A stretch of 37,180 nt of DNA from positions 1 to 37,180 of the IMG/VR virus record IMGVR_UViG_3300027969_000220, one strand, 5' to 3'. This document shows, one piece after another, positions 8,003-18,627 of this stretch (the first letter of the stretch is position 1; each line of letters begins with the position of its first letter). The DNA is from a virus. The notes below the pieces were generated by a model, which ran no database searches, had not been told where the DNA came from, and saw only the letters and a list, made by a program, of their open reading frames with translations. Position numbers and translations under genes: made by a program.

Positions 8003-8329
8003 CTAAATGTTGTAGTCATACAGCCCGGATTCGCCGTCGTTCAACGCCCTTCGTTCGGCCTCGACGAAGTTGTAGTACTGGCTCGGATAGTAGTGGTGCC
8101 ACCGTTCCAGCCCTTGGGCAATCGCCCACTTGGCCGCCACTGCGTTTGTGTCGATGGTGGCCAGCTCGACCGCTCGCCCTTCGGCGTCGATGAACCGGAT
8201 AGCCTCTTTAATGATCCGAATTTGTTCCTCCGCGCTGAACTTGGCAAAGTTCCGCAGGTCGGTTTTTAGCCGTTGCGGTTCGTAGCCCGACTTACTGGCC
8301 GCCGTCTTTCCTATGTCAAGATGGCTCAT
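8003..8329 (-). CDS. Hypothetical early protein (108 aa)
   Basis: About 108 residues from the ATG at 8329, chosen because GAGGAC lies just upstream; an in-frame ATG at 8347 falls inside the previous gene. It is soluble and helical, with an N-terminal basic part (SKSGYEPQRLKTDLRNFAKF) and an aromatic-rich C-terminus (RWHHYYPSQYYNFVEAERR). No family recognised. It follows the 101-aa gene with a two-base gap and is the last gene before the intergenic promoter at about 8000. Confidence 0.7.
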   Translation of the reverse strand: MSHLDIGKTAASKSGYEPQRLKTDLRNFAKFSAEEQIRIIKEAIRFIDAEGRAVELATIDTNAVAAKWAIAQGLERWHHYYPSQYYNFVEAERRALNDGESGLYDYNI

Positions 8330-8331
8330 GA

Positions 8332-8637
8332 TTAGTCCTCGATCCATATCAAGACACCTTCGACGGTGCAGGTGCAGGGGTAATTACACCAATCGTTGCG
8401 TGCAATGGTATGAGCCGCAACAACCGCCGCTGCCCCCCTCATCGCCGGGTCGTCAATCTTTTCCTTTACCCAGCTGTCGTAAAGCTCTATGGCCGCGTCT
8501 AATAGGTGAACCGAGTCTTCCGGCAGTCGGTATGGTTTGGCTGGCCCACCGGAGTCTTGGTAAGCCATCATAACGGCTTTTTCCATCAGCTCGGTTTTTA
8601 TCACCCCGTTCAAAGCGTCTCGCAAGCTGTAATTCAT
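8332..8637 (-). CDS. Hypothetical early protein behind hammerhead ribozyme 1 (101 aa)
   Basis: About 101 residues from the ATG at 8637, with GAAAGG about 8-13 bases upstream. The longer frame to 8751 reads back through the ribozyme and is rejected. The protein is mostly helical (LRDALNGVIKTELMEKAVMMAY), Ala-rich near the C-terminus, ending with DWCNYPCTCTVEGVLIWIED, where three Cys are close together. No family recognised. Its mRNA would begin with the 3' product of the hammerhead at 8660-8709, giving a leader of about 50 bases with a 5' hydroxyl. Confidence 0.75.
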   Translation of the reverse strand: MNYSLRDALNGVIKTELMEKAVMMAYQDSGGPAKPYRLPEDSVHLLDAAIELYDSWVKEKIDDPAMRGAAAVVAAHTIARNDWCNYPCTCTVEGVLIWIED

Positions 8638-8659
8638 CGTTTTAGCCTTTCGTTTGTTT

Positions 8660-8709
8660 AGCCTCGTCAGTACCGTTATCAACGGTAGACCCCCGGAGGG
8701 GTTTCGGCT
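8660..8709 (-). ncRNA. Type II hammerhead ribozyme 1
   Basis: On the minus strand, 5' to 3': stem II strand AGCC (8709-8706), GAAA, stem III ACCCC-UCCG-GGGGU, cleavage base C17 (8688), stem I UACCGUU-GAU-AACGGUA, core CUGACGA (8670-8664), and stem II strand GGCU (8663-8660). All invariant hammerhead nucleotides are present (CUGANGA, GAAA, U16.1, H17), G10.1-C11.1 pairs, and the molecule is open at stem II, which defines type II. The stem III loop is a UNCG tetraloop. Predicted cleavage is between 8688 and 8687. It starts four bases after the stop of the 79-aa gene and ends 22 bases before the next ATG. Confidence 0.93.
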
Positions 8710-8713
8710 TTGC

Positions 8714-8953
8714 TTAGTTGAGATGTGTGACCTCGTGCAGCGCGTCATCAATGGCCCGCCTTAAAACCCTCAAATCGTATTCGACGGCGGCGGCCATCGT
8801 TCGTATCTGTTTTGCCTCATCGACGGTTGCGTCAACCCTGATACTTTCTACGAGCTTGACAAACTCCTTTATCGTGGCCATAGCCTCGGCCACGGTTGCC
8901 GACACGTCGGCGTCTGGCTTGCCTGTCGCGTACGGTTCGCTTTTATTGCTCAT
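8714..8953 (-). CDS. Hypothetical helical early protein (79 aa)
   Basis: A 79-residue, acidic and almost entirely helical protein (AEAMATIKEFVKLVESIRV ... IRTMAAAVEYDLRVLRRAIDDAL), probably a coiled coil or four-helix element. Its ATG overlaps the stop of the 92-aa gene (ATGA), so translation is likely coupled. It is the third and last gene in the segment bounded by the two hammerhead ribozymes; its stop codon lies four bases before ribozyme 1. No family recognised. Confidence 0.75.
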   Translation of the reverse strand: MSNKSEPYATGKPDADVSATVAEAMATIKEFVKLVESIRVDATVDEAKQIRTMAAAVEYDLRVLRRAIDDALHEVTHLN

Positions 8954-9228
8954 TCGCCCAGCTCCTCAAAAACGTTCCCGATTGTTGTTTCCAGTGACGC
9001 TTGCAACTCTTCCCAGAACCGTAGCTTGGCCTCTTTCATGGCCGCTGTATGGCTTTTGCCGTCTTCAATCTCGTCCTGATACCTTCTTGCCGCTGAATCG
9101 TGGGCGTCGTCATACGCCGTGATCGTGTCGCCTGTGTCGTCTAGGTTCTCGTCAACCCAGTTATTCAGGAGCGTCCTGATCTTGCTTTTGATCGCTTTGC
9201 GTGTCGCTGGCACCTTGTAGTCTGGCAT
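8950..9228 (-). CDS. Hypothetical early protein (92 aa)
   Basis: A 92-residue protein starting at the ATG at 9228, with GAAAGGG about ten bases upstream. The N-terminus is basic (YKVPATRKAIKSKIRTLLNNW) and the rest is acidic and helical (DDAHDSAARRYQDEIEDGKSHTAAMKEAKLRFWEEL). No family recognised. It is the middle gene of the ribozyme-bounded segment and overlaps the next gene by four bases (ATGA). A 66-base gap separates it from the 69-aa gene upstream; no promoter is evident in that gap. Confidence 0.75.
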   Translation of the reverse strand: MPDYKVPATRKAIKSKIRTLLNNWVDENLDDTGDTITAYDDAHDSAARRYQDEIEDGKSHTAAMKEAKLRFWEELQASLETTIGNVFEELGE

Positions 9229-9294
9229 TGTCCCGCCCTTTCAGTATTGTTGTTGAACCGACATTCATCATTCCGAGCCATCCGTTCGCTTTGG

Positions 9295-9504
9295 TCATTG
9301 AGCCTGAGTCCAGATCCAGAACTCGACAACTTTTTCGTCACTTAGCCAATGACCTGTGCATGGGTTTTCAATCCAGATGCCACCAGATTCGTCTACGCTG
9401 GCCTCTTGGCAATTTGCCCACTCGCAAACCGATGCGGCGATCAAATCGCCAACCCCAGCAACTACATCTGCCCCTATGCTTGCCCTTATTTCTGTTGCTT
9501 GCAT
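9295..9504 (-). CDS. Hypothetical early protein behind hammerhead ribozyme 2 (69 aa)
   Basis: A 69-residue acidic protein from the ATG at 9504, with GAAAGG upstream. It shows an Ala/Val-rich helical N-terminal half (GADVVAGVGDLIAASVCEW) and a Trp-rich second half (GGIWIENPCTGHWLSDEKVVEFWIW). No family recognised. The leader between ribozyme 2 and this ATG closely resembles that between ribozyme 1 and the 101-aa gene (shared CGAAAGGCT), so the ribozyme plus leader looks like one duplicated cassette. Confidence 0.7.
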   Translation of the reverse strand: MQATEIRASIGADVVAGVGDLIAASVCEWANCQEASVDESGGIWIENPCTGHWLSDEKVVEFWIWTQAQ

Positions 9505-9526
9505 GTTCCAGCCTTTCGTGTGTTAT

Positions 9527-9576
9527 AGCCTCGTCAGTGCCGACCAGATCGGCAGACGCCTTCCGGCGTTTCGGCT
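9527..9576 (-). ncRNA. Type II hammerhead ribozyme 2
   Basis: On the minus strand, 5' to 3': stem II strand AGCC (9576-9573), GAAA, stem III ACGCC-GGAA-GGCGU with a GNRA tetraloop, cleavage base C17 (9555), stem I UGCCGA-UCUGG-UCGGCA, core CUGACGA (9537-9531), and stem II strand GGCU (9530-9527). The core is identical to ribozyme 1, while stems I and III differ in sequence but keep pairing, which is covariation between two natural copies. Predicted cleavage is between 9555 and 9554. The first A is shared with the TAA stop of the 119-aa gene, so the ribozyme begins exactly at the end of that gene. Confidence 0.93.
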
Positions 9577-9935
9577 TAGGATAAGTCTTTATTCCGCCGC
9601 TGTTCGCCCAGCCAATCCATCTGGTGCCGCAAAACCATGTTGACCATCCGGCATTGGTTTTCGTCGGATATTTCAAGCTTGTCAATCAGGTCGGCCACCG
9701 CGTCAACTATCTTGATAAGCTCTTCCGCATAAATCCAGCCGCTTTGAGTGTTTACAGCGACCCGTTCGCCAATTGTGGGGAAGTATTCGCCGTACATGGT
9801 TATGACCTTTTCTGCCCGTTCAACCCCAACATCCTCAAGCGTGATTTGGGTCTTGGCAGGAAGGGTTGTCTTTGTAACGCTAACGTCTTTTACGGTGCCA
9901 ACTACGATGTATTCGACTTTGTTCATCAGGGTCAT
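9576..9935 (-). CDS. Hypothetical early protein (119 aa)
   Basis: A 119-residue protein from the ATG at 9935 with AAAGG about nine bases upstream (a second in-frame ATG at 9926 is possible). The N-terminal 60 residues are beta-rich (KVEYIVVGTVKDVSVTKTTL ... KVITMYGEYFPTIGERVAVN), like a small barrel; the C-terminal half is helical (LIKIVDAVADLIDKLEI, MVNMVLRHQMDWL). No family recognised. It is the first gene after the candidate promoter at 9993-10020 and ends exactly where hammerhead ribozyme 2 begins. Confidence 0.75.
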   Translation of the reverse strand: MTLMNKVEYIVVGTVKDVSVTKTTLPAKTQITLEDVGVERAEKVITMYGEYFPTIGERVAVNTQSGWIYAEELIKIVDAVADLIDKLEISDENQCRMVNMVLRHQMDWLGEQRRNKDLS

Positions 9936-9992
9936 CGGTTTCTGCCTTTCGTTCGTTTCGGTTTTCGTTCGCCCTCATTGGGCTACATGTAT

Positions 9993-10020
9993 ATAGTACC
10001 GGGTTCCCGGAAATAGTCAA
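9993..10020 (-). promoter_or_regulatory. Early leftward promoter with embedded operator
   Basis: On the minus strand TTGACT (10020-10015), a 16-base spacer and TACTAT (9998-9993). The spacer is filled by TTCCGGGAACCCGG, almost identical to the spacer of the plus-strand promoter at 16747-16774. A further GGAACCCGG copy lies just upstream at 10021-10029. The same operator between -35 and -10 in two promoters pointing in different directions indicates binding by one repressor. It drives the 119-aa gene and the ribozyme-linked genes. Confidence 0.7.
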
Positions 10021-10058
10021 GGAACCCGGCAGAATATTTCTAAATTCTTTCTGGCCTG

Positions 10059-10232
10059 TCATTTAGCCTCATTGATTGCTTGCCGCAAAAACCACGCGAC
10101 GACCCGTACAGGCTGCTCCGGTTGCTCGTCGTCAACCTTTGCCAATCTCTTGGCCATAAGCATGATCGTCTTGGCCGCGACCTCTGGCGTGACATCTACA
10201 GCCACGCTGGCCGATTCCTCTAGTGCCGTCAT
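10059..10232 (-). CDS. Hypothetical small early protein (57 aa)
   Basis: A 57-residue gene whose ATG at 10232 overlaps the stop of the 87-aa gene (ATGA), with GGAAGG about ten bases upstream inside that gene. The product is helical: an acidic N-terminus (TALEESASVAVDV), a central KTIMLMAKRLAKV helix and a C-terminal VVAWFLRQAINEAK helix. No family recognised. It is the last gene of the short cluster starting at 11269 and is followed by the promoter at 9993-10020. Support is the coupled start, the ribosome site and the clean fit between neighbours. Confidence 0.65.
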   Translation of the reverse strand: MTALEESASVAVDVTPEVAAKTIMLMAKRLAKVDDEQPEQPVRVVAWFLRQAINEAK

Positions 10233-10492
10233 ATGATGAGACCTTCCATATTTGCACGAGCCTTGGCGGACAGCGCTTCCGGGTTCTCGATGTCCATAAG
10301 CAAGGCGTACTCTTCCGGGTAGTGTTCGCGGATTGTCTGGAGCAATTTCACGACGGTAGCCGTTTCCGGTTCCAGCTGGTGCCGTGGTCCGATGGCAAAG
10401 AACTCGTCGATTTCCATCATGATCTCAACCTTGTCCAAGCTATCGAGTTCACGGTTTTCGGTCATGTGCTGATATTCATCCCACCTCGTCAT
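10229..10492 (-). CDS. Hypothetical early protein (87 aa)
   Basis: An 87-residue acidic helical protein (DSLDKVEIMMEIDEFF ... TATVVKLLQTIREHYPEEYALLMDI). The ATG at 10492 lies inside the nuclease gene, overlapping it by 17 bases. An alternative in-frame ATG gives MTENREL. No family recognised. Its end is coupled to the 57-aa gene. Confidence 0.7.
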   Translation of the reverse strand: MTRWDEYQHMTENRELDSLDKVEIMMEIDEFFAIGPRHQLEPETATVVKLLQTIREHYPEEYALLMDIENPEALSAKARANMEGLII

Positions 10493-10832
10493 CTATCACC
10501 CCCAAGTTTGTGTCGTCCTTTGCCGCCTGTTGTTCAGCCGCCACTGTTTGCAGATCGGTATCCTTGATCAGGTACCAGCGTCCCGGTCTGCCCTTTACCT
10601 GCAAGCAGACCACCGGTGTCTTTTTTTCCTTCTTGGCCTTCTTGGCCGCGTCGTCCCATAGCGTGATGACCGCGTGCCGTGCGGAGGCTTTACACTCCAG
10701 ATACAGCTTTTCATGCACGGAATCGGACCGGGTCTTGTCGCTTCGGTTCTGGCTGCCTGAGCCGGGGTTGCGGAGGCTACCAAAATCAGCCGCCGCACGG
10801 GCTTCACCCTTCTGCCAAGTTCGTCTATGCAT
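10476..10832 (-). CDS. PD-(D/E)xK-type nuclease, Holliday-junction-resolvase-like
   Basis: A 118-residue protein with the arrangement of small archaeal-Hjc-like or phage resolvases: KGEARAAADFG near the N-terminus (the conserved Glu), a basic SGSQNRSDKTRSDS loop with Asp, the catalytic strand LYLECKA (ExK), then a helix DDAAKKAKKEKKTPVVCLQVK. These match a PD-(D/E)xK fold, in which the Asp, Glu and Lys bind metal and cut DNA. The likely role is resolving recombination or replication intermediates before packaging. Start ATG at 10832, overlapping the 77-aa gene by 8 bases. An alternative is another small nuclease of the same fold; the family-level call is fairly sure, the substrate is not. Confidence 0.72.
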   Translation of the reverse strand: MHRRTWQKGEARAAADFGSLRNPGSGSQNRSDKTRSDSVHEKLYLECKASARHAVITLWDDAAKKAKKEKKTPVVCLQVKGRPGRWYLIKDTDLQTVAAEQQAAKDDTNLGVIDDEVG

Positions 10833-11058
10833 TGTCTAACCTCATTTGGCACCATTCTTTAGCGTGATAAAGGTCTTCAAACTCACACGCCACCCCCCAC
10901 TTCTCAAGTTTGGTTGGGCCATACCCGTCAGGGTGTTGGACCAGCCGCCCAACGTAGGCTTGCCATCTGGTCCCGTCGCCCCGGTAATCTATTTGCGCGT
11001 AATGCCCGTCGCCCAAAGCAATAAGAACCGTTCCGCTTTTGTCATTCGTCCAAATCAT
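10825..11058 (-). CDS. Hypothetical early protein (77 aa)
   Basis: A 77-residue protein with beta-rich N-terminal half (SGTVLIALGDGHYAQIDYRG, RWQAYVGRLVQ) and a C-terminal helix (FEDLYHAKEWCQMRL). The ATG at 11058 overlaps the preceding gene by 17 bases and has GGAAGGAC upstream. The layout resembles small phage proteins of unknown function with one beta sheet packed on a helix. No function assigned. Confidence 0.7.
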   Translation of the reverse strand: MIWTNDKSGTVLIALGDGHYAQIDYRGDGTRWQAYVGRLVQHPDGYGPTKLEKWGVACEFEDLYHAKEWCQMRLDNA

Positions 11059-11269
11059 TGCCGGCGTCCTTCCTCATTTGCTTTCGTGCCTCGTACATCA
11101 TCTCGGCCAGCCCGCCGTAAAGCGTGAACCGGCTGCCCCGGACCAGCGAAAAGGTCGGGTTGGCCTCCGTTTCTTCCTCGTTATGCCCAAAGATGACCAG
11201 CGTAGCGTAGCGCCGGGCCAACTCCTCAAGCAGTTCGTTGTTTGTCGCCATTGCAAGCTCGTTGTCCAT
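11042..11269 (-). CDS. Hypothetical early protein (75 aa)
   Basis: About 75 residues from the ATG at 11269, chosen because AAGGAG stands six bases upstream; the frame also opens at 11287 inside the antirepressor stop. Acidic, with a helical N-terminus (ATNNELLEELARRYATLVIFG) and a C-terminal helix (GGLAEMMYEARKQMRKDAG). No family recognised. It follows the antirepressor after ten bases and heads a chain of overlapping genes to 10059. Confidence 0.7.
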   Translation of the reverse strand: MDNELAMATNNELLEELARRYATLVIFGHNEEETEANPTFSLVRGSRFTLYGGLAEMMYEARKQMRKDAGNDLDE

Positions 11270-11279
11270 TGGTTGCTCC

Positions 11280-12059
11280 TTAAGCAAATAGAGGCGTGTT
11301 GTCGTCTTTGCCGCCCAGCTTTTCCGCCAGCTTTGCTATTCCCTTAGCGGTGATCTTCATCTGCGTTCTTACGGAAGTTGACCCGTCCGGCTTGGACACC
11401 TCTGTTGTAACGTGTTCTAAAAGCCCGCTTTGAAGCTTGTCCTGATAGCCAATCCAAGACATATTGCCGGGTCGCTTGTATGCCCACTTGTCTTGGCTTA
11501 AGTAGTCAAATAGTTCCTTTGGCCTCATCTTAAGCGTTTTGGCCGCGTCGGTTACGCACATGGACCCGTCTTGGCCTTCCAGCCGTTTCATGGCTTTAAC
11601 CTTTGGCGCCGCCTCGTCCAGCTTGCCCGTTAACTCTAAAGTCTTTTGGGCGTATTGCTGAAGCAACGGTATTAACGCTGCCGGGTCGCTCAGGTCGATT
11701 GCCGGTTGCTCCTGCCGACCGTAGCCGCCCGTTTTGCGGATAGACGGGAGGACTTCCGACGTCACCCACTTCTTGAACGCCTTGGCCCCCGGTTTCCGGC
11801 TGGTCATAATCAGGGAGTAAAGGCCAGACTCGTTGACAACGTAAGTCCATTGCTTTCTTCCAATTGAATCCGTGACTTCGATAGTATCGAACTCATCTTC
11901 ATCAAGCCTAAGCATCGCATCAGTTACGTTTCCAATCGTCAGCACGTCGCACACATCCTTGGCCACCCACCTCGGTTCTCCGTCCTCGCCAATGACAACA
12001 CGAATTGTCTGGCTGGTGATCGGGAACGTGAACTGCGTTATTTCGTTTTTGCCCGTCAT
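11280..12059 (-). CDS. Bro-N / KilAC antirepressor
   Basis: A 259-residue antirepressor-like protein. Residues ~5-115 form a Bro-N domain: IRVVIGEDGEPRWVAKDVCDVL, then DEDEFDTIEV, VVNESGLYSLIMTSRKPGAKAFKKWVTSEVLPSIRKTGGY, with the conserved NESGLYSLI and KKWVTSEVLPSIRKTG segments. Residues ~135-250 match the phage antirepressor C-terminal (KilAC) domain, with GSMCVTDAAKTLKMRPKELFDYLSQDKW and a following GLLEHVTTEV. Such proteins inactivate a phage repressor or act as DNA-binding regulators. Start ATG at 12059, with a dyad GGTTC-AATA-GAACC just upstream suggesting it is itself controlled by the shared operator. Confidence 0.9.
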   Translation of the reverse strand: MTGKNEITQFTFPITSQTIRVVIGEDGEPRWVAKDVCDVLTIGNVTDAMLRLDEDEFDTIEVTDSIGRKQWTYVVNESGLYSLIMTSRKPGAKAFKKWVTSEVLPSIRKTGGYGRQEQPAIDLSDPAALIPLLQQYAQKTLELTGKLDEAAPKVKAMKRLEGQDGSMCVTDAAKTLKMRPKELFDYLSQDKWAYKRPGNMSWIGYQDKLQSGLLEHVTTEVSKPDGSTSVRTQMKITAKGIAKLAEKLGGKDDNTPLFA

Positions 12060-12079
12060 ATTTTTACCCTATTCTTTCC

Positions 12080-12093
12080 GGTTCTATTGAACC
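12080..12093. promoter_or_regulatory. Operator-like dyad upstream of the antirepressor
   Basis: A perfect inverted repeat GGTTC-N4-GAACC in the 35-base gap between the zinc-ribbon gene stop and the antirepressor ATG. The following minus-strand bases GAACCGGAAAGAATAG parallel GAACCGGGAAGAATAG at the portal promoter. No good -35 hexamer is visible, so only operator status is proposed. Confidence 0.45.
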
Positions 12094-12094
12094 A

Positions 12095-12460
12095 TCATCT
12101 GCCCTTGGCGAACATCGCCCCGGTGCTACCAACCGACTCAAACCAAGCCCGAAAGCTGGCACGTGATTGGTCATCGGTGCCCTTGAAGTTAATCCCCCGG
12201 TCCTCGGCCCATCTCTTCAGCCGTTCGCCTTCCTCGATCCGCTGACAGCTGGCCTCAAATAGCTGCTCCTCCGTGGCCTTCGGTACGCCCGCGTATTTCA
12301 TCGCCTTAATGCAGCGACAGGCAAACGCCGCCGTATGCGTCCCACTTGTCCCTCTTACGGGAAGAACCACAGCGCCTGTATTTCCACAAGTCGTACATTC
12401 GCCGTAGTAAAGATCTTCCACCGCTTCTGTCACCCACTCTGCTTCCGTTTCTACCAACAT
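12095..12460 (-). CDS. Zinc-ribbon protein (121 aa)
   Basis: About 121 residues from the ATG at 12460, which has AAGGAG seven bases upstream; the frame further upstream to 12586 overlaps the rep gene end and the operator. A likely zinc site is formed by ECTTCGNTG (CxxC) and FACRC (CxC) about 25 residues later, with a loop between. The C-terminal half is helical and charged (EEQLFEASCQRIEEGERLKRWAEDRG). Similar two-part proteins accompany phage replication genes, where a loader or primase accessory role is possible, but no specific function can be assigned. Its own promoter/operator lies at 12488-12534. Confidence 0.72.
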   Translation of the reverse strand: MLVETEAEWVTEAVEDLYYGECTTCGNTGAVVLPVRGTSGTHTAAFACRCIKAMKYAGVPKATEEQLFEASCQRIEEGERLKRWAEDRGINFKGTDDQSRASFRAWFESVGSTGAMFAKGR

Positions 12461-12487
12461 CTTGAATCTCCTTGATTTGGTATCTTC

Positions 12488-12534
12488 ATGGTTCCCGATA
12501 CCCAAGACTATTGAATTGGGAACCATAAAGTCAA
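12488..12534 (-). promoter_or_regulatory. Promoter with inverted-repeat operator, zinc-ribbon gene
   Basis: On the minus strand TTGACT (12534-12529), then TAGTCT (12510-12505) at 18 bases or ATAGTC at 17. Arms ATGGTTCCC (12488-12496) and GGGAACCAT (12518-12526) form a 9-base inverted repeat, 21 bases apart, around the -10. It lies between the rep stop and the zinc-ribbon start. The GGGAACC half-site matches those at other promoters here. Confidence 0.6.
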
Positions 12535-12548
12535 GCAGTATTTTATTT

Positions 12549-13709
12549 TTAATCCGCCAGCCCTTCCTTCCGCAGGATATCGCCAATCTCGGCCAGCTTT
12601 TTTCCTTGGGTCACAAGCTCGTTCTGGCGTTCGTTGCGCCGCTTCATGAGGTCTTTCAGCGCGGCCCTGTCCGCCTCGGCCTTTTGCCTTGCCTCGTTTT
12701 CCCGGATCCTATTTTCCGCCGCTTCCTTTTCCCTTGCCGCTAGGCCATAGCCATTGGCCGCTCGTTCTTCGACGCTCATTTCTACCATCTTGCCACCAAG
12801 AAGCCCGCCAAGAGGCCTTCCCGGCGGTTTCTGGTTCCCGTTACTGGCCGGCAATCGCGGTGGTGGGTCTTGGCCGGGTGCCGGTTGGTTCGGATAGGGC
12901 GTCTTGACCTCTAGCCATTGGCCATTTTTGAGGACGCGTTTGCCGTCCTTAGTCGTGATGCGATCTGTGTTTACCGATGGTGGGGCCAGCGTTTCCCTGA
13001 CCTCGGCGTCGGTCATTCGCCGACAAATCGCCGTGAAATAGTTCACTCCCCGCGCCGGGTCAGTCTTCATCAGAGCCGCCTCGATTCTCGGTTCTTCCCA
13101 GCCAGCCATGCGAATCTGGTGAAGCACGGCGTTCGGGTTGTTCGGGAAAGCTGCGTTGATTTTGGTAATTAGGCTGCCTGACAGAACGAGGGGGAGGACG
13201 CCGGGAAGCTTGGCCGCCGTCGTCGCACTTTGACATTCAGTAACGCTTACGCTCGCTCCCTCCCTCTCTTCCGGTTTAGGAATCAATCTAGGAACCAATC
13301 TAAGTAAAGCATCCCCGTTTTCCGGGGGTCTTAATCCACGTATTTCGGGGGTCTTGATCCTTGTATTTCGGGAATCCCGAATTTCGGGAACCTTGTTTTC
13401 CGTGGGTCTTGAATCGTTATCTTCGCATACCTCCCTGACCTCGCCCACCCATCTTACCAAGGTGCCGGACCGGGTTCGCTTTGTCTCGATAAAACCGTTT
13501 TCTTTCAGCCACCTGATAGCCAAGGTTATCGCGGTTTCCTGAATCCCCCAGTCTTCCATAATGAACCGCTGGATGATCTTCTCAAACCCCGTCAAGTCGC
13601 GCTGGACCGTCCTCGTAAAAATCGAGCCGGCGACCATCTTGTGAGAAGCCGGAATATCAAGCGAAGCAATACGTTGCGGGACCGATATAAAATAGACCTT
13701 GTCAGTCAT
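12549..13709 (-). CDS. Phage replication protein (O/DnaD-like initiator)
   Basis: A 386-residue protein with an N-terminal winged-helix-like region (residues ~10-95: FEKIIQRFIMEDWGIQETAITLAIRWLKENGFIETKRTRSG) typical of phage replication initiators. A low-complexity linker with repeated PEIR/RPPEN words is encoded by the iterons at 13317-13417. A middle conserved part (GSLITKINAAFPNNPNAVLHQIRMAGWEEPRIEAAL) is followed by a highly charged C-terminal helix (EVRARQKAEADRAALKDLMKRR-like) that may recruit a helicase. The origin inside the initiator gene resembles the lambda O arrangement. Start ATG at 13709 with GAGGA upstream. No helicase or polymerase gene is recognised in the window, so the phage probably uses host enzymes. 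Confidence 0.78.
   Translation of the reverse strand: MTDKVYFISVPQRIASLDIPASHKMVAGSIFTRTVQRDLTGFEKIIQRFIMEDWGIQETAITLAIRWLKENGFIETKRTRSGTLVRWVGEVREVCEDNDSRPTENKVPEIRDSRNTRIKTPEIRGLRPPENGDALLRLVPRLIPKPEEREGASVSVTECQSATTAAKLPGVLPLVLSGSLITKINAAFPNNPNAVLHQIRMAGWEEPRIEAALMKTDPARGVNYFTAICRRMTDAEVRETLAPPSVNTDRITTKDGKRVLKNGQWLEVKTPYPNQPAPGQDPPPRLPASNGNQKPPGRPLGGLLGGKMVEMSVEERAANGYGLAAREKEAAENRIRENEARQKAEADRAALKDLMKRRNERQNELVTQGKKLAEIGDILRKEGLAD
13317..13417. repeat. Iterons inside the replication gene, candidate origin
   Basis: Direct repeats of about 23 bases start at 13317 (GTTTTCCGGGGGTCTTAATC), 13340 (GTATTTCGGGGGTCTTGATC) and 13363 (GTATTTCGGG, then diverging). A short copy lies near 13380 (ATTTCGGGAACC) and a further long copy at 13395 (GTTTTCCGTGGGTCTTGAAT). 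The first three have an exact 23-base period, close to two helical turns. Just upstream, AGGAATCAATCT and AGGAACCAATCT form another tandem pair (about 13279-13302). Iterons within an initiator gene mark an initiator-binding origin. Confidence 0.65.
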
Positions 13710-13732
13710 AATCCACTATCCTCATAGCACTC

Positions 13733-13761
13733 TTGATAACCAACGAATCCCGTGCTAGAAT
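13733..13761 (+). promoter_or_regulatory. Rightward promoter antisense to the rep leader
   Basis: TTGATA (13733-13738), exactly 17 bases, TAGAAT (13756-13761) on the plus strand, so transcription would start near 13768. The 10-base inverted repeat CCAACGAATC (13740-13749) / GATTCGTTGG (13763-13772) brackets the -10 and could be an operator, or a hairpin in the oppositely directed rep leader. Confidence 0.6.
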
Positions 13762-13767
13762 AGATTC

Positions 13768-13846
13768 GTTGGTGAGTTCGGTTGCTTCGTTCCACCACAC
13801 CAAAAAAGCGGCCTCAAGACGTTCTAAGCGTCTGGGGCTTTTTTAT
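13768..13846 (+). ncRNA. Candidate antisense small RNA over the rep leader
   Basis: Bounded on the left by the promoter at 13733-13761 and on the right by a strong terminator ending in six T. No reading frame is present. The predicted RNA of about 80 nt is complementary to the leader of the leftward rep transcript that would start near 13852. A TGGTG/CACCA helix can form near its 5' end before the terminator hairpin. Start and role are inferred. Confidence 0.5.
13802..13846. terminator. Bidirectional intrinsic terminator
   Basis: A hairpin pairing GCCTCAAGACG (about 13811-13821) with CGTCTGGGGC, flanked by AAAAAA on the left (13802-13807) and TTTTTT on the right. It can end the rightward small RNA and also leftward transcripts from csrA or from the promoter at 13859-13887. 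In the latter case it would sit in the rep leader as an attenuator. Confidence 0.8.
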
Positions 13847-13851
13847 TGGCG

Positions 13852-14082
13852 TCAGTTCATAGTATCAAGTGAACCCGGTTCAGTCAACTCGTCCGGCGTC
13901 TTTCGTAACATCTTGCTCTGCCAGACTTCTTCGCGGTCAACGATGATGGCCTTTTCGCCCTTGAACCCAATCTTTACCTTGTGGCCGTTGACGATTTCGG
14001 AGATAACAACTTCCAGCAGGACGTTGCCCTCGGCGTCGGTGACGATGCAGCTTTGCCCAGTTTGTCGTGATAGTACCAGCAT
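13852..14082 (-). CDS. csrA: CsrA-family post-transcriptional regulator
   Basis: A 76-residue CsrA homologue. The start is the ATG at 14082 (MLVLSR, the canonical N-terminus), preceded by GGAG six bases upstream; the frame opens at 14094 but that start is poorer. Matching elements are MLVLSRQTGQSCIV, a middle VVISEIVNGHKVKIGF and IIVDREEVW, corresponding to the RNA-binding first strand and the VHREEV-like segment. CsrA dimers bind GGA motifs in mRNA leaders. In a phage it could redirect host translation or control phage messages. It is isolated between a terminator (14102-14126) and a bidirectional terminator (13802-13846), and its 3' end contains a promoter. Confidence 0.93.
   Translation of the reverse strand: MLVLSRQTGQSCIVTDAEGNVLLEVVISEIVNGHKVKIGFKGEKAIIVDREEVWQSKMLRKTPDELTEPGSLDTMN
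13859..13887 (-). promoter_or_regulatory. Leftward promoter of rep inside the csrA 3' end, with operator
   Basis: On the minus strand TTGACT (13887-13882), a 17-base spacer and TACTAT (13864-13859). The spacer begins with the palindrome GAACCGGGTTC. Transcription would start about 13852 at the csrA stop codon and meet the hairpin at 13846-13802 at once, 143 bases before the rep ATG. Confidence 0.65.
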
Positions 14083-14101
14083 GATGAACTCCATTCATAG
14101 G

Positions 14102-14126
14102 AAAAGGGGTGACACGTTGCCACCCC
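14102..14126 (-). terminator. Intrinsic terminator after the ERF gene
   Basis: On the minus strand GGGGTG (14126-14121), nine-base loop, CACCCC (14111-14106), then TTTT (14105-14102). It lies between the stop of the ERF gene and the csrA start, so csrA would need read-through or its own promoter, which is not evident. Confidence 0.7.
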
Positions 14127-14136
14127 TGACTTTAGA

Positions 14137-14754
14137 TCAATAGTCCGCCGAGTAATCGTTCCGGTCTTCCCGTTCGTAATCTCGGTCGTTATTTCGGCGA
14201 GCCGTTTCCGGTTTCCGATCCTTCCAGCAGTACTTCGAACAACCGGGCTTGCCGTTTTTATAGGTCCGATTCGGTGCGCCACAATCGCGACAGCTGCCCA
14301 GATCGCCGCCTCCATCGTCGTGACGCTGTGGAGGCACCTCACGCCCAGATGGCCGAGCATCAAAGTGGCGATCCATCTTGGCGTCGGTTTGGGCTGCCAG
14401 CCCGTCGTCGTCTTCCGGTGACAAGCCCAAAATCGTCAGAATGCTGTACCGGCGAAAGTACGTCAATCGGCTGCCGAAAGACTGCGGCTTTTCGTCGATG
14501 AACAACGGCAGCTCTTGGGTTTCCCGCTCGCCGGTGGCTACGTGAACAATACTGGTCACCAACACCGCGACGTTTGCAGACCGGTCGTATTCGGTACGCT
14601 GGCGAAGAACTAGGCCGCACTCGGTCAGGGGCTCAACGACGGCTTCCAGCACTGCCGGAAGATCGGCGTATTTGTATCTGTCCGCCTTTGCGTTCTTGTG
14701 GACAGCGACGGATTTAGACTGGAAACAGAGCAAGGATTCATTCAGGGTCTTCAT
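14137..14754 (-). CDS. erf: ERF-family single-strand annealing protein
   Basis: A 205-residue recombinase from the ATG at 14754, which has GGAAGG about seven bases upstream; the frame opens to 14808 inside the previous gene. The ERF core is clear: DRYKYADLPAVLEAVVEPLTECGLVLRQ, then VLVTSIVHVATGERETQELPL, then GSRLTYFRRYSILTILGLSPEDDDG, matching the family GS.lTYarRY.l and acidic DDD signature. The C-terminus has a possible zinc knuckle (CRDCGAPNRTYKNGKPGCSKYC, four Cys) that may bind DNA, followed by an Arg/Asp-rich tail. It anneals single strands in recombination or concatemer formation. Overlaps the upstream gene by 17 bases. Confidence 0.92.
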   Translation of the reverse strand: MKTLNESLLCFQSKSVAVHKNAKADRYKYADLPAVLEAVVEPLTECGLVLRQRTEYDRSANVAVLVTSIVHVATGERETQELPLFIDEKPQSFGSRLTYFRRYSILTILGLSPEDDDGLAAQTDAKMDRHFDARPSGREVPPQRHDDGGGDLGSCRDCGAPNRTYKNGKPGCSKYCWKDRKPETARRNNDRDYEREDRNDYSADY

Positions 14755-15034
14755 TTGTTTGCCTTCCAAAAGTTGATAATGGTGTTGTGTTTGAGTCGAT
14801 ATCCTCAAGCGTGAGAATCATTTCCAGCTTGGGGGAATCGGCGTTTGCTTCGATGAAGTCCATCCAAGCCTCATCGACGAGGTGAATCAATACCGGAGTC
14901 ATCTTGGAATCGTAGAAACGTCCCATTGCGTAAATCCTTTGCATAGTCGCCTTGTTGACCGGCCCGCCAGTTTTCAAAAGTGATACCGGGCATTTTACCC
15001 GGACACCCTTTCTTTTTGTCTTCGATTCATCCAT
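14738..15034 (-). CDS. Hypothetical first leftward gene (98 aa)
   Basis: A 98-residue protein, first gene downstream of the strongest promoter in the window (15084-15112). The N-terminus is basic (MDESKTKRKGVRVKCPVSLLKTGG) and the middle contains VLIHLVDEAWMDFIEANADSPKLEMILTLEDI. No family recognised. Its place directly before the annealing protein and next to the lysogeny switch suggests an immediate-early function such as recombination partner or host takeover, but the sequence does not show which. Confidence 0.75.
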   Translation of the reverse strand: MDESKTKRKGVRVKCPVSLLKTGGPVNKATMQRIYAMGRFYDSKMTPVLIHLVDEAWMDFIEANADSPKLEMILTLEDIDSNTTPLSTFGRQTNEDPE

Positions 15035-15058
15035 TGATCTGGTCTCTATGGTTCGATT

Positions 15059-15083
15059 GTAACGGGTTCCCTGTACCCGTTAC
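15059..15083. promoter_or_regulatory. Operator at the main leftward promoter
   Basis: Inverted repeat GTAACGGGT-N7-ACCCGTTAC with perfect 9-base arms, immediately downstream of the leftward -10 and so covering the expected start site near 15077. Its centre contains GGGTTCCC, related to the GGGAACCC core at other promoters. Confidence 0.75.
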
Positions 15084-15112
15084 ATAATATAACTGCAATC
15101 ACACCTTGTCAA
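15084..15112 (-). promoter_or_regulatory. Main leftward early promoter (pL-like)
   Basis: On the minus strand TTGACA (15112-15107), exactly 17 bases, TATTAT (15089-15084): the closest match to the sigma70 consensus in the window. Its -35 shares bases with the rightward promoter. It drives the 98-aa gene and erf. Confidence 0.85.
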
Positions 15113-15134
15113 GCCGGGTTCTGGGAAGTATGAT
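15106..15134 (+). promoter_or_regulatory. Rightward promoter of the lysogeny side
   Basis: TTGTCA (15106-15111), 17 bases, TATGAT (15129-15134). The -35 overlaps that of the leftward promoter on five bases, so polymerase cannot occupy both. CCGGGTTC in the spacer is another half-site of the shared operator type. Confidence 0.75.
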
Positions 15135-15140
15135 CTGAAT

Positions 15141-15156
15141 AGCGGAATGTTCCGCT
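15141..15156. promoter_or_regulatory. Palindrome at the rightward start site
   Basis: AGCGGAA-TG-TTCCGCT is a perfect palindrome with 7-base arms, located where the rightward transcript would start and before the ribosome site at 15165-15171. It differs from the GAACCCGG-type sites, so it may bind a second regulator, possibly the product of the gene that follows. Confidence 0.6.
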
Positions 15157-15179
15157 CTAACATCAAAGGAGCTTTAAAA

Positions 15180-15422
15180 ATGTCGGTTGTATCATCGAGA
15201 CCAAAGTACGTGACTTGCGTTTTGCCGCCTGCCATGGCGGTACCGCTGGAGAGCCTAAAAAACGACCTTCAGAACAAGGGGGTGTCCCTCACCGGTCGGC
15301 AGGTGGTTGGCCGCGATTCTATCGCCATGGCCGCGCTTGCATATATTTTGTCGCTGCCTATGGAGGATCAAGAAAAGCTTGTGATGGCCGGAATTGAAGC
15401 CATCCGAAAGCAAAGTGCGTAA
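15180..15422 (+). CDS. Small putative regulator (80 aa)
   Basis: An 80-residue protein from the ATG at 15180, with AAAGGAG eight bases upstream; the earlier in-frame start at 15147 lies in the operator palindrome. N-terminal strand-like segment (RPKYVTCVLPPAMAVPLESLKNDL) and C-terminal helices (DSIAMAALAYILSLPMEDQEKLVMAGIEAIRK) could fit a small ribbon-helix-helix or similar dimeric regulator, but no motif is diagnostic. It is the first gene rightward from the divergent promoters, where a repressor or Cro-like protein normally sits, and it stands next to attP. Function inferred from position only. Confidence 0.7.
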   Translation: MSVVSSRPKYVTCVLPPAMAVPLESLKNDLQNKGVSLTGRQVVGRDSIAMAALAYILSLPMEDQEKLVMAGIEAIRKQSA

Positions 15423-15456
15423 CGTTATAAACCCTGCGCAAACCGGCGGATTCGCT

Positions 15457-15498
15457 TTTCTAATCCGTGGGTCAGGGGTTCGAATCCCTTCGGGCGTA
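15457..15498 (+). other. attP candidate: 3' half of tRNA-Arg(TCT)
   Basis: The sequence matches a tRNA exactly from position 32 to 73. Anticodon loop TTTCTAA holds anticodon TCT (15459-15461), followed by the 3' anticodon strand TCCGT, variable loop GGGTC and T arm AGGGG-TTCGAAT-CCCTT (15474-15490). The acceptor strand is CGGGCGT and the discriminator A at 15498. The 5' half is absent: the preceding bases do not pair with TCCGT and no ACGCCCG acceptor strand occurs upstream. A tRNA 3' half next to an integrase gene is the classic attP of phages that integrate in tRNA genes and restore the tRNA. Confidence 0.85.
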
Positions 15499-15549
15499 CT
15501 AATCCTAGACGGGTCCGCTTTACGCGTTCATAAATAATATAAATGCCGT

Positions 15550-15578
15550 TTGACAAAGGAGTTGTCGTGTTGAATATT
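15550..15578 (+). promoter_or_regulatory. Candidate integrase promoter
   Basis: TTGACA (15550-15555), 17 bases, AATATT (15573-15578). A small dyad GACAA-N5-TTGTC (15552-15566) covers the -35 and may be an operator or integrase arm site. AAAGGAG within the spacer precedes a GTG-led 36-codon frame, which may be a leader peptide but is not called. Confidence 0.5.
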
Positions 15579-15636
15579 GACGCATGTATCCGCCCCATCC
15601 GATGGCTGACCGTCACCCAATCTACCGAGAATAAAG

Positions 15637-16716
15637 TTGTACTACTACAACTATATCGCTTCCGCCAGCCCTGTTGTTGAACAAATGGGTCGCAAGAAAA
15701 ACACCGTTCCGACCCATTTAATCCGTGCCGACACCGGCATGGGCTATATCAAAATCGGAGTACAACTTTATTACACCGGAATCGAACCGGTGGAGGCAAA
15801 CCGGCGATATCTGGAATATTGCCGGAACCTCGATCTTTACGGTCACCCCGACCCGCCGACGGTGGCTTGTGGTATCATGGTGGCCGACTTGGCTACCCGG
15901 TACCACGCCCACGTCGTGAAGACCAAGCCGCCGGAGTCGCGGGAAGATTGGCCGGTTGGTGTCGCCATGAAGTCTTTGGCCATGATTGACTGCCCGGCGA
16001 AGGACTTTACGCCCGCCCGGCTGGTGGACCTCCGCCAGTCTTGGGTCGATGCCGGGTTGTCGGTCAGTACAATCAGCAAGAAACATAACTACATTCTCGT
16101 CGCTTTCCGCTGGGCCGCTCAGATGGACCTAGTACCGGCGACCGTGTGGACCGCCCTCCAGACCGTCCAAAAGCTCAAGCCCGGTCGGTCGGCGTGCAAA
16201 CAGCCCAAAAAGGTTCATCCTGTGGAACGCTCAACGATTGACGCCATTATGCCGTTTCTCTCCGCCGACGTAGCCGCGTTGGTCGAGTTCCAGTGGCTCA
16301 CCGGGTGCCGGTCCGCCGAGGCGATAGGAATCACGATGGCCGAGGTCATCCTGCCGCGAGTCTACAAACCATCGAAACACAAGAACGCCTTCAGGGGTAA
16401 GCAACGGGTGATCTTCCTCGGCCCTAAAGCCCGTGCCCTGATTGCCAAGTGGGCCACCGATGATCCGCACAAACCCTTGTTTGCCGCCATGACATCCTGC
16501 GAATACGGAAAGCGTATCAAGCGTGCCTGTAAACGAGCCGGGGTTGCCCACTTCACGCCGCACATGATCCGCCACGCCCACGGAACCCTCGTTCGCGAGC
16601 AATACGGGCTTGATGCCGCGCAAGCCGCCCTTGGGCATTCCTCCGCCCGGACAACCGAAATCTATGCAGAGGTCAGTCAGACCCTTGCCAAAAAGGTCTC
16701 GGACGAGATCGGCTAA
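15637..16716 (+). CDS. int: Tyrosine-family integrase
   Basis: A 359-residue tyrosine recombinase when started at the TTG at 15637; the first ATG in frame is at 15685 (343 residues), and neither has a strong ribosome site. The N-terminal ~180 residues include an arm-binding and a core-binding SAM-like region. The catalytic residues are visible as TGCRSAEA (Arg I), a Lys in the KQRVIFLGP strand, HMIRHAHGTLVR (HxxR), LGHSSARTTEIYAEV (His and nucleophile Tyr). The YKPSKHKNAFRGKQRVIFLGPKA segment is reminiscent of integrases from Planctomycetota. It lies directly beside the tRNA-derived attP, supporting site-specific integration into a tRNA-Arg gene. Confidence 0.95.
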   Translation: MYYYNYIASASPVVEQMGRKKNTVPTHLIRADTGMGYIKIGVQLYYTGIEPVEANRRYLEYCRNLDLYGHPDPPTVACGIMVADLATRYHAHVVKTKPPESREDWPVGVAMKSLAMIDCPAKDFTPARLVDLRQSWVDAGLSVSTISKKHNYILVAFRWAAQMDLVPATVWTALQTVQKLKPGRSACKQPKKVHPVERSTIDAIMPFLSADVAALVEFQWLTGCRSAEAIGITMAEVILPRVYKPSKHKNAFRGKQRVIFLGPKARALIAKWATDDPHKPLFAAMTSCEYGKRIKRACKRAGVAHFTPHMIRHAHGTLVREQYGLDAAQAALGHSSARTTEIYAEVSQTLAKKVSDEIG

Positions 16717-16746
16717 AAATTTTATTGAAAGATTATGGCTCAATCC

Positions 16747-16774
16747 TTGACTAGTTCCGGGAACCCGGTATCAT
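16747..16774 (+). promoter_or_regulatory. Rightward promoter with embedded operator
   Basis: TTGACT (16747-16752), 16 bases, TATCAT (16769-16774). The spacer contains TTCCGGGAACCCGG, the same element found between -35 and -10 at 9993-10020 on the other strand. It precedes the 71-aa gene by about 55 bases. Confidence 0.7.
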
Positions 16775-16830
16775 ATAGGTGTCGGGCAAATTAACCGACG
16801 AAAACAAAGACCCTGAAAGGATATAAGACG

Positions 16831-17046
16831 ATGATTGCCGAAATTGTACCAACCGTAATCGAGGTTTTGAGGATGTCTGCCAAGGATCGCCAGCTGCTTC
16901 GCAACGACCTAGCCCGACGTGAACTCGATCTTGTTGAAGAGACCATGTACATCGGTCGCCCCAACGACCAGAACGAACGCGACCTGCTCATGGAGCTGGC
17001 CTTGGTGTCTGATCTGCTGGACGTTATTCGCGAACTTACTGCCTAA
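16831..17046 (+). CDS. Hypothetical small helical protein (71 aa)
   Basis: A 71-residue acidic helical protein from the ATG at 16831, with AAAGGA about 12 bases upstream. It begins IAEIVPTVIEVLRMSAKDRQLLRNDLARRELDLVEE, where SAKDRQLLRNDL could be part of a helix-turn-helix-like unit, but this is weak. It lies behind a promoter with the shared operator, so it may itself be the regulator of these sites or a gene under their control. No family recognised. Confidence 0.7.
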   Translation: MIAEIVPTVIEVLRMSAKDRQLLRNDLARRELDLVEETMYIGRPNDQNERDLLMELALVSDLLDVIRELTA

Positions 17047-17079
17047 GTTGATAGAACCAAAAACAAAGGAACCCGTATC

Positions 17080-17448
17080 ATGACGATTGCAACCCGCTCT
17101 AACGTATCCGCCAAGTCCGCCAAAAAAGCCCAACGCAAGGTCTATGTCGGACTCTATCAGCATACCGGTCGCGACTATGCCGATATGTACCGCCGCCAGC
17201 GTAACGGCTATATACACGAAATCGACTTCCAAACGGTGCGGATATTCCTCCATTTTGCCACGCGTTCGGCGAAATTCTTGGTAGACAATATGCCCTACGA
17301 CCGTGACAGCCGCCGCCGCTGGCTCGGCACGTTAAGCAAGGAAAAAGCCCGCGTGCGTCATGCTTTAGCCGAAATCAAAGTGGACCGGCTGGCTGGCCGT
17401 GGTTTATGGCGACCCATTGGCGGTGATGTCCCATTTGTAAAATCGTAA
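17080..17448 (+). CDS. Hypothetical basic protein (122 aa)
   Basis: A 122-residue strongly basic protein (about one quarter Lys/Arg) from the ATG at 17080 with AAAGGA upstream. It has an N-terminal Lys-rich region (SAKSAKKAQRKVYVGLYQ), then RDYADMYRRQRNGYIHEIDF and a C-terminal helix (LSKEKARVRHALAEIKVDRL). Nucleic-acid binding is likely from charge, but no family is recognised. It is the last rightward gene, 33 bases from the 71-aa gene, and is followed by the terminator at 17474-17507. Confidence 0.7.
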   Translation: MTIATRSNVSAKSAKKAQRKVYVGLYQHTGRDYADMYRRQRNGYIHEIDFQTVRIFLHFATRSAKFLVDNMPYDRDSRRRWLGTLSKEKARVRHALAEIKVDRLAGRGLWRPIGGDVPFVKS

Positions 17449-17473
17449 TACACCTAGGAGACGTTGGTGTGAG

Positions 17474-17507
17474 GCCTCGCCGGAGCGTTTCCGGTGGGGC
17501 TTTTTTT
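17474..17507 (+). terminator. Intrinsic terminator of the rightward operon
   Basis: Perfect 11-base stem GCCTCGCCGGA (17474-17484) / TCCGGTGGGGC (17490-17500), five-base loop GCGTT, followed by seven T. It separates the rightward genes from the convergent late genes, whose last stop codon begins at 17509. Confidence 0.92.
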
Positions 17508-17508
17508 G

Positions 17509-18627
17509 TTATGTCCATGTTAAACGGACAATAGCGTCGGTTTCAGAATAACGAAATACATTATTTCCAGCCGCGTCTGAAACTTGGGCAACTTCCGAAA
17601 GTCTCAATGTTGCCGGAATGTCGTAAGTTCCCTGCCCGCCTTGCCAAAGGCTACCGGCTGGAATGCGATGTGATTTAAACGAGATGGTCACGCCACCAAC
17701 AAAGCGAGTGGTTCGTTTGGTTACGGTGTTATATTGGTCGCCCGCCCCCAGTCTGCCGCAAAGAGCGTCAGTCGTAATCAGTCCACCACCTGCTTGTGCG
17801 GCACCAAGTTCATTACAGGTCACGATAGAACCGTGCTTCCATGTAATCGTGTTATCGGTGGCGTTATAGGTGGGCCAAATGCCGCCGGTCGTAAAAAACG
17901 GTTCTTCTATCTTCCATTGATTTATCCCTGTGTAATTATCGGGCGACATACCGAACCAGTCTACTTGAAATACGTTTCGGTATGGCGCCCGTGGTGGCTG
18001 GTTGGGGGGCCACCTGTCGCCCACAAGGTTTCCTGTTGGGAAATCGCTAGGCTGCGGGTCGGCCAGTTGCGTCACGTGCCAGATATTGCTCCAATTTTGA
18101 CCCGGTTGCGTAATATTAGGGTTAAAGTCCCATGGCCAGCATGTTTGATCTTCTACGATGCTTTGCGTGCCATCGGGGTTTGTAATCGGCCCAGACGCAC
18201 GGTGACCGGTGTCAATGTGACTCCATTCTACAGTCGTGGACTGGAACGCGTTATTGACCGAATACTTTTTGTTTAATGCCATTCGGTATAATAATTTCTT
18301 GTCCGGTGCTACCCAACCCGGTTCCGGTTCCGACCTTTCGATGATGAAAAACGCAGTAGCTGGCGGATTTGTGGCTCCTTGCAAAGTCCAGTAGTAGAAC
18401 TGTTCCGGATACACAAGTGACGGCATAGTGAATATGGCTTGCGCCTTTACCGTTTTGATCTTCCAAATAAACGGCGGGGGAGGATTCCACTCCAGCGTCA
18501 AAACGTTGCCCAGATACTGGGCCGCCATCATGGCCGCGTTGGAACGTGCCAGTTCCTTATCGGCCAGATCTTCCAGCCGATAGACACGCCGTTCCATTTC
18601 GAGCTGCCGCCGGGTCAGGTCATTCAT
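17509..18627 (-). CDS. Virion protein, probable tail tip/fibre component (372 aa)
   Basis: A 372-residue protein, last gene of the leftward late cluster. The first 40 residues form a helix (LTRRQLEMERRVYRLEDLADKELARSNAAMMAAQYL), probably a coiled coil for trimer formation; the rest is beta-rich and rich in Trp, Pro, Asn and Thr (WNPPPPFIWKIKTVKAQAIF, VFQVDWFGMSPDNY, WKHGSIVTCNELG). No domain recognised. It starts one base into the stop of the 53-aa gene (TGATG). Position after the tail tip protein and composition favour an adsorption or tip structural role. Confidence 0.7.
   Translation of the reverse strand: MNDLTRRQLEMERRVYRLEDLADKELARSNAAMMAAQYLGNVLTLEWNPPPPFIWKIKTVKAQAIFTMPSLVYPEQFYYWTLQGATNPPATAFFIIERSEPEPGWVAPDKKLLYRMALNKKYSVNNAFQSTTVEWSHIDTGHRASGPITNPDGTQSIVEDQTCWPWDFNPNITQPGQNWSNIWHVTQLADPQPSDFPTGNLVGDRWPPNQPPRAPYRNVFQVDWFGMSPDNYTGINQWKIEEPFFTTGGIWPTYNATDNTITWKHGSIVTCNELGAAQAGGGLITTDALCGRLGAGDQYNTVTKRTTRFVGGVTISFKSHRIPAGSLWQGGQGTYDIPATLRLSEVAQVSDAAGNNVFRYSETDAIVRLTWT

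Follow-up and report, generated by a model that had tools for sequence, protein, structure and literature searches.

Two type II hammerhead ribozymes lie on the minus strand of the window, a virus record of 37,180 bases analysed here at its full length, and both probably cleave themselves and thereby cut a phage operon mRNA at the gaps between a stop codon and the next start codon. Copy A occupies positions 9527–9576 and copy B positions 8660–8709. Sequence, architecture, and an independent covariance model all identify both copies as type II hammerheads; the assignment was made by sequence reading, RNA folding, Rfam, and the independent model. The reading as self-cleaving elements is supported by the intact core and fold, the E-value of about 1e-14, the placement found across the class, the confinement to one strand, and the published cleavage of tandem phage hammerheads.

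Read directly from the minus strand, copy A (9576–9527) consists of AGCC, GAA, the stem III hairpin ACGCC-GGAA-GGCGU, C, the stem I hairpin UGCCGAU-CUG-GUCGGCA, CUGACGA, and GGCU. Copy B (8709–8660) is built in the same way from AGCC, GAA, the stem III hairpin ACCCC-UCCG-GGGGU, C, the stem I hairpin UACCGUU-GAU-AACGGUA, CUGACGA, and GGCU. In both copies, the 5' strand of stem II is followed by GAA, the stem III hairpin, C17, the stem I hairpin, CUGACGA, and the 3' strand of stem II, which is the type II order. The hammerhead core (CUGANGA ... GAAA ... UH, with A15.1–U16.1 and G10.1–C11.1) is present in both, and stems I and III are closed by loops while stem II is open, the arrangement that defines type II. 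Stem II is identical in the two copies (4 bp, AGCC/GGCU), whereas stems I and III differ between them. Folding of both 50-nt elements gives the expected three-way junction in the minimum-energy and centroid folds, and the three helices also appear in the covariance-model alignment. The direct reading bears out the full core (C17, U16.1, and G10.1–C11.1), the open stem II, and the coordinates proposed in the initial annotation, together with its GNRA and UNCG tetraloops on stem III, which are GGAA in copy A and UCCG in copy B. Its description of stems that have diverged while staying paired is right in that stems I and III differ with pairing kept, but the stem I strands that it set against each other (UACCGUU and UGCCGA) need correction, as stem I is 7 bp with a 3-nt loop in both copies. 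From the sequence, cleavage is predicted at 9555/9554 in copy A and at 8688/8687 in copy B. A pseudoknot between loop I and the 3' tail is absent from both copies, since the loops CUG and GAU, read by eye, have no complement of at least 3 nt in the tails AUAACACACG and AAACAAACG.

The pattern of core plus stem II matches the window exactly twice, at copies A and B, and gives 0 matches in 100 shuffles. In Rfam, Hammerhead_II (RF02276) is the sole family matched in the window at E-values up to 1; copies A and B rank first, yet at 31.0 bits (E = 0.015) for one and 28.5 bits (E = 0.067) for the other they fall short of the gathering score, which is 37. The core, the element order, and the three stems are common to this family and both copies, but the RF02276 model expects a short stem II and an interaction between loop I and the tail, whereas copies A and B have a 4-bp stem II and a 3-nt loop I. 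An independent model, R1, was built from alignment A1, which holds 37 same-shape copies from other sequences, with the window left out; the type II copies for modelling were gathered by pattern scans of viral and genome contigs. R1 recovers both copies, one with 65.2 bits (E = 1.1e-14) and the other with 60.9 bits (E = 1.4e-13), and the next-best place in the window reaches 13.5 bits. The covariance-model check that had been proposed for the two elements thus succeeds with R1, while the RF02276 matches stay sub-threshold. Neither the pattern scan nor the R1 search finds a third hammerhead copy in the window.

Along the direction of minus-strand transcription, the genes run from an ERF recombinase, an antirepressor (Ant), a Holliday-junction-resolvase-like gene, and several small genes to copy A, followed by three small genes, copy B, two small genes, a ParB/methyltransferase protein, the terminase, and the portal. 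As in the clustered hammerheads of phages, two same-strand copies flank genes, and terminase, portal, ERF, Ant, and ParB-methyltransferase genes are found in the window. The genes around copies A and B are plausibly early genes, with ERF, Ant, and the resolvase-like gene lying upstream. The 119-aa ORF upstream of copy A (9576–9935, minus strand, no PHROG or Pfam match) ends in a TAA whose last base is the first base of copy A. The block bounded by the ribozymes contains, all on the minus strand, a 69-aa ORF, the first downstream of copy A (9295–9504, no family), a 92-aa ORF (8950–9228, no family), and a last ORF of 79 aa (8714–8953, no family above cut-off), the TAA of which lies 4 nt ahead of copy B. 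A 101-aa ORF (8332–8637, minus strand, no family) is located downstream of copy B. The ATG starts at 9504 and 8637 are each situated 22 nt past the end of copy A and copy B, respectively, and the former is preceded by AAGG, 7 nt upstream of the ATG. The placement claimed at the outset therefore stands, with copy A at a stop, copy B just past a stop, and a start 22 nt after each; the starts do bear ribosome sites, as was also claimed, but these are only GAAAGG/AAGG. PHROG- and Pfam-type searches gave no significant family assignment for the enclosed ORFs, the 92-aa ORF has no relative in the viral contigs searched, and neither protein nor DNA search found close relatives of the three-gene block. 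Across 8003–10232 (minus strand), the small ORFs near the ribozymes are mostly orphans. Judged by terminase, the nearest relative is L272 (65% identity), whose 16 kb examined contain no hammerhead; the elements are therefore dispensable. Near the contig end of the same relative (L272:308-340), a weak sub-threshold RF04351 match coincides with the tRNA T-arm-like GGATTCGAACC.

Each ribozyme would fold co-transcriptionally, with stems III and I forming closed local hairpins and stem II pairing over 4 bp (AGCC/GGCU). The predicted cut after C17 would split the operon mRNA into units, including an RNA of 867 nt (8688–9554, minus strand) that is read from the sequence as the product of double cleavage and that would carry the three small genes as ORFs of 69, 92, and 79 codons. 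The predicted 5' end of this RNA comprises the stem I hairpin of copy A, CUGACGA, and GGCU, and the predicted 3' end comprises AGCC, GAA, the stem III hairpin of copy B, and UC>p. At each cut, the upstream RNA would end in stem III, with its stable GNRA or UNCG tetraloop, and a 2',3'-cyclic phosphate; simultaneously, the downstream RNA would have stem I with a 5'-OH at its start and the ribosome site after it. A hairpin on both new ends is a consequence of the type II layout, the sole permutation that gives this. Hairpin ends can protect RNA from exonucleases and from the 5'-phosphate-dependent RNase E. With cleavage in vivo, the hairpins of copies A and B may protect the new ends in this manner, and the likely benefit would be independent stability and translation of each block.

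The arrangement in the window recurs throughout the class. Of 483 sequences put through a structural scanner, 313 contained type II hammerheads, giving 473 non-redundant copies, some of them in MAGs and in one isolate genome; an earlier scanner pass over 1.6 Mb gave 167 matches versus 0 in one first-order Markov control. Hundreds of unrelated phage contigs carry the same motif with stems that covary, and the covariation supports the alignment without being proof of structure because the scanner itself demands pairing in those rows. An upstream stop within −20 to +30 accompanies 239 of the first 255 non-redundant copies (94%), and such a stop plus an SD-bearing start within 40 nt accompanies 174 of the 255 (68%), compared with 11–22 at random same-strand positions (about 4–9%) and 10 on the opposite strand (4%). 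Mixed-strand arrays number 0 among the 45 contigs with two or more copies, and a single gene spans the distance from ribozyme to ribozyme in 81 of 160 intervals between tandem copies. Placement in the order stop, ribozyme, start is the rule across the class, with tandem copies on one strand, so that the gene-junction placement initially described for this virus holds class-wide. Among stem III loops of four bases, moreover, 247 of 347 belong to the GNRA or UNCG type.

One array, in a 57-kb virus record (IMGVR_UViG_3300017605_000570, L406/L485, record positions 9932–17520), consists of 24 tandem type II hammerheads on one strand. All exceed the Rfam cut-off, their spacing is mostly ~160–450 nt, and there is nearly one per small gene; loop I and the tail covary between copies (UGGU with AGCC, GUCGCG with AGCG). 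Four tandem type II hammerheads are found in a contig binned as Lokiarchaeota (L165, JABXKD010000121.1), which may represent an archaeal virus or mis-binning. The isolate Singulisphaera sp. GP187 carries six tandem type II hammerheads (L176, NZ_FSRB01000001.1, 5232001–5240000) and might serve as a test system in culture. Between the same two genes, one contig contains two adjacent ribozymes (L290:5050-5190, minus strand) and another contains one hybrid (L038:3839-3910), which could reflect recombination inside the core or duplication in L290.

A 3-nt loop I is present in about one third of the surveyed copies, including copies A and B. In this subclass, 150 of 161 copies have a 7-bp stem I, 140 of 161 a 4-bp stem II, and 129 of 161 the stem I tip GU-NNN-GC, while an A lies immediately 5' of stem II in 97 of 103. 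Copies A and B share this A, and their stem I tips depart from the consensus (AU-CUG-GU in copy A and UU-GAU-AA in copy B). Complementarity of at least 4 bp between loop I and the tail is seen in 11% of the 3-nt-loop subclass (5% with swapped tails) versus 49% of the longer-loop group (13% with swapped tails). By estimate, the loop I/tail pseudoknot is used by ~40% of hammerheads, and it speeds many type II hammerheads; many hammerheads do without it, possibly through other contacts or none (PMC3088659). Given such uniform lengths, the subclass may rely on a different tertiary contact, for which the stem I tip and the A before stem II are possible partners. Copies A and B could be slow, because they have no loop I/tail pseudoknot and their stem I tips are off the subclass consensus. 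Among 35 records searched for the subclass with RF02276, 4 reach the cut-off and 11 have no match at E 0.01. At its gathering score, RF02276 mostly misses the pseudoknot-less type II hammerheads with a 3-nt loop, which a second model would recover; with a large subclass under the Rfam cut-off, such ribozymes are therefore under-counted in phage genomes.

Several other explanations were weighed against self-cleavage of the operon mRNA. In favour of the reading that copies A and B have lost activity, or that they are plain hairpins (protein or RNase III sites, terminators) that resemble hammerheads, stand the sub-threshold Rfam scores. Against it, no core nucleotide is altered in either copy, although their stems have drifted apart and still pair, the independent model gives E-values of about 1e-14, and no U-run follows the elements; this reading is highly improbable. 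Scarcely credible is a ribosome-site switch, in which the stem II strand AGCC pairs with the GGCU of the core or, as the alternative, with another GGCU located 12–13 nt downstream and overlapping the ribosome site (GAAAGGCU), so that cleavage frees the SD. The second GGCU is present in both copies, and the minimum-energy fold of a longer RNA of copy B uses it; across the class, however, a second stem II strand occurs within the next 35 nt in 27 of 255 copies versus 30.3 with swapped tails, and the switch was rejected in view of this lack of enrichment. The identity of stem II in copies A and B, despite differing stems I and III, invites a further explanation, namely that the GGCU of the copy A 3' half and the AGCC of the copy B 5' half pair as a product complex and that the ribozyme or an RtcB-type ligase circularises the 867-nt RNA. 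Ligases of the RtcB type join a 2',3'-cyclic phosphate to a 5'-OH end. In 40 contigs with unselected stem II and with near-paralogous pairs removed, the first 3 nt of stem II are alike in 66% of within-contig pairs versus 21% over 1000 permutations matched by class, in which the maximum was 35%. The conservation index peaks at 10.2–10.4 and 11.2–11.4, on both stem II strands, and fades outward, and stem II is GC/GC in all 21 parsed copies of the 24-copy array; stem I within contigs stays close to its background (0.42 vs 0.38). Part of this signal is due to shared descent: when homologous copies from different phages are compared, stem II proves to change less rapidly than stem I, and stem III is also somewhat conserved within contigs. 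The slow change weakens shared stem II as proof of circularisation. Moreover, arrays with mixed stem II exist (L134, L209, and L373), and circular or spliced products were sought by Perreault et al. with none detected (PMC3088659). Circularisation of the 867-nt RNA is thus quite improbable, and it is more doubtful still that phages with tandem hammerheads maintain a single stem II sequence to let every excised mRNA close, which would yield circular, exonuclease-resistant mRNAs including the three-gene RNA of the window.

The shared stem II fits two functional readings, a pairing that holds RNA ends ready for ligation or ribozyme halves that can be swapped, and the window, with two copies only, does not by itself decide between them. 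The latter reading regards the ribozyme mainly as a shared DNA joint for phage gene exchange, in which the common stem II keeps swapped cassettes cleavable. In the type II layout, any 5' half can be combined with any 3' half if stem II matches, because stems I and III are local hairpins. Swapping has direct evidence in its favour, and the likeness between related phages frequently ends at a ribozyme: just one ribozyme flank is common to 29 of 49 related pairs on different contigs, and homology endpoints fall at ribozymes at 4.2 times the coverage expectation (59 vs 14.0). In L038, a single ribozyme has a 5' half that matches L290 copy 1 and a 3' half that matches its neighbour, L290 copy 2. 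However, ordinary gene junctions are mosaic too (2.5 times), the conserved ribozyme itself stretches alignments to its edges, and searches for relatives of the cassettes in the window, as material for a test, came back empty. An exchange joint also gives no reason for keeping a catalytic core rather than any linker, and a role mainly of this kind is unlikely; self-cleavage that divides the operon mRNA is preferred.

Clustered hammerheads flanking phage genes are known, and their role in phage transcript processing was proposed by Perreault et al. in 2011 (PMC3088659). The suggestion in the initial annotation of intercistronic processing sites is thus supported by the placement of copies A and B but is not novel, and the function is putative. 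Tandem phage hammerheads cleave in vitro and, in the case of A. tumefaciens, after cloning in E. coli (PMC3088659). The prophage clusters of that study (for example the Agrobacterium tumefaciens ardA triple array, Clostridium scindens, and Azorhizobium caulinodans) resemble the window in that several hammerheads flank single genes or short blocks; the window differs in its phage, its block of three orphan ORFs, and its lack of a pseudoknot, and is known here from sequence. The HHphage of haloviruses HF1 and HF2 (Perreault et al. 2011) likewise places a hammerhead just before a start codon among early operon genes, but it is a structurally distinct variant from a haloarchaeal virus, in a single copy 13 nt ahead of the start. 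Hammerhead and twister ribozymes near Mu-like phage genes and one another show the same habit (PMC10085705); the window genes tested included none recognisable as Mu-like.

Copies A and B are not new in kind; the survey adds the placement, the single strand, the shared stem II, the mosaic joints, and a subclass mostly missed at the Rfam threshold. Why phages keep ribozymes between genes has been a question since 2011, and according to a 2023 paper the biological reason for the association with phage genes is still unknown (PMC10085705). The window offers a clean and small case of it, and the survey sharpens the question to cut ends protected by hairpins, circular mRNA through the shared stem II, or joints for gene exchange.
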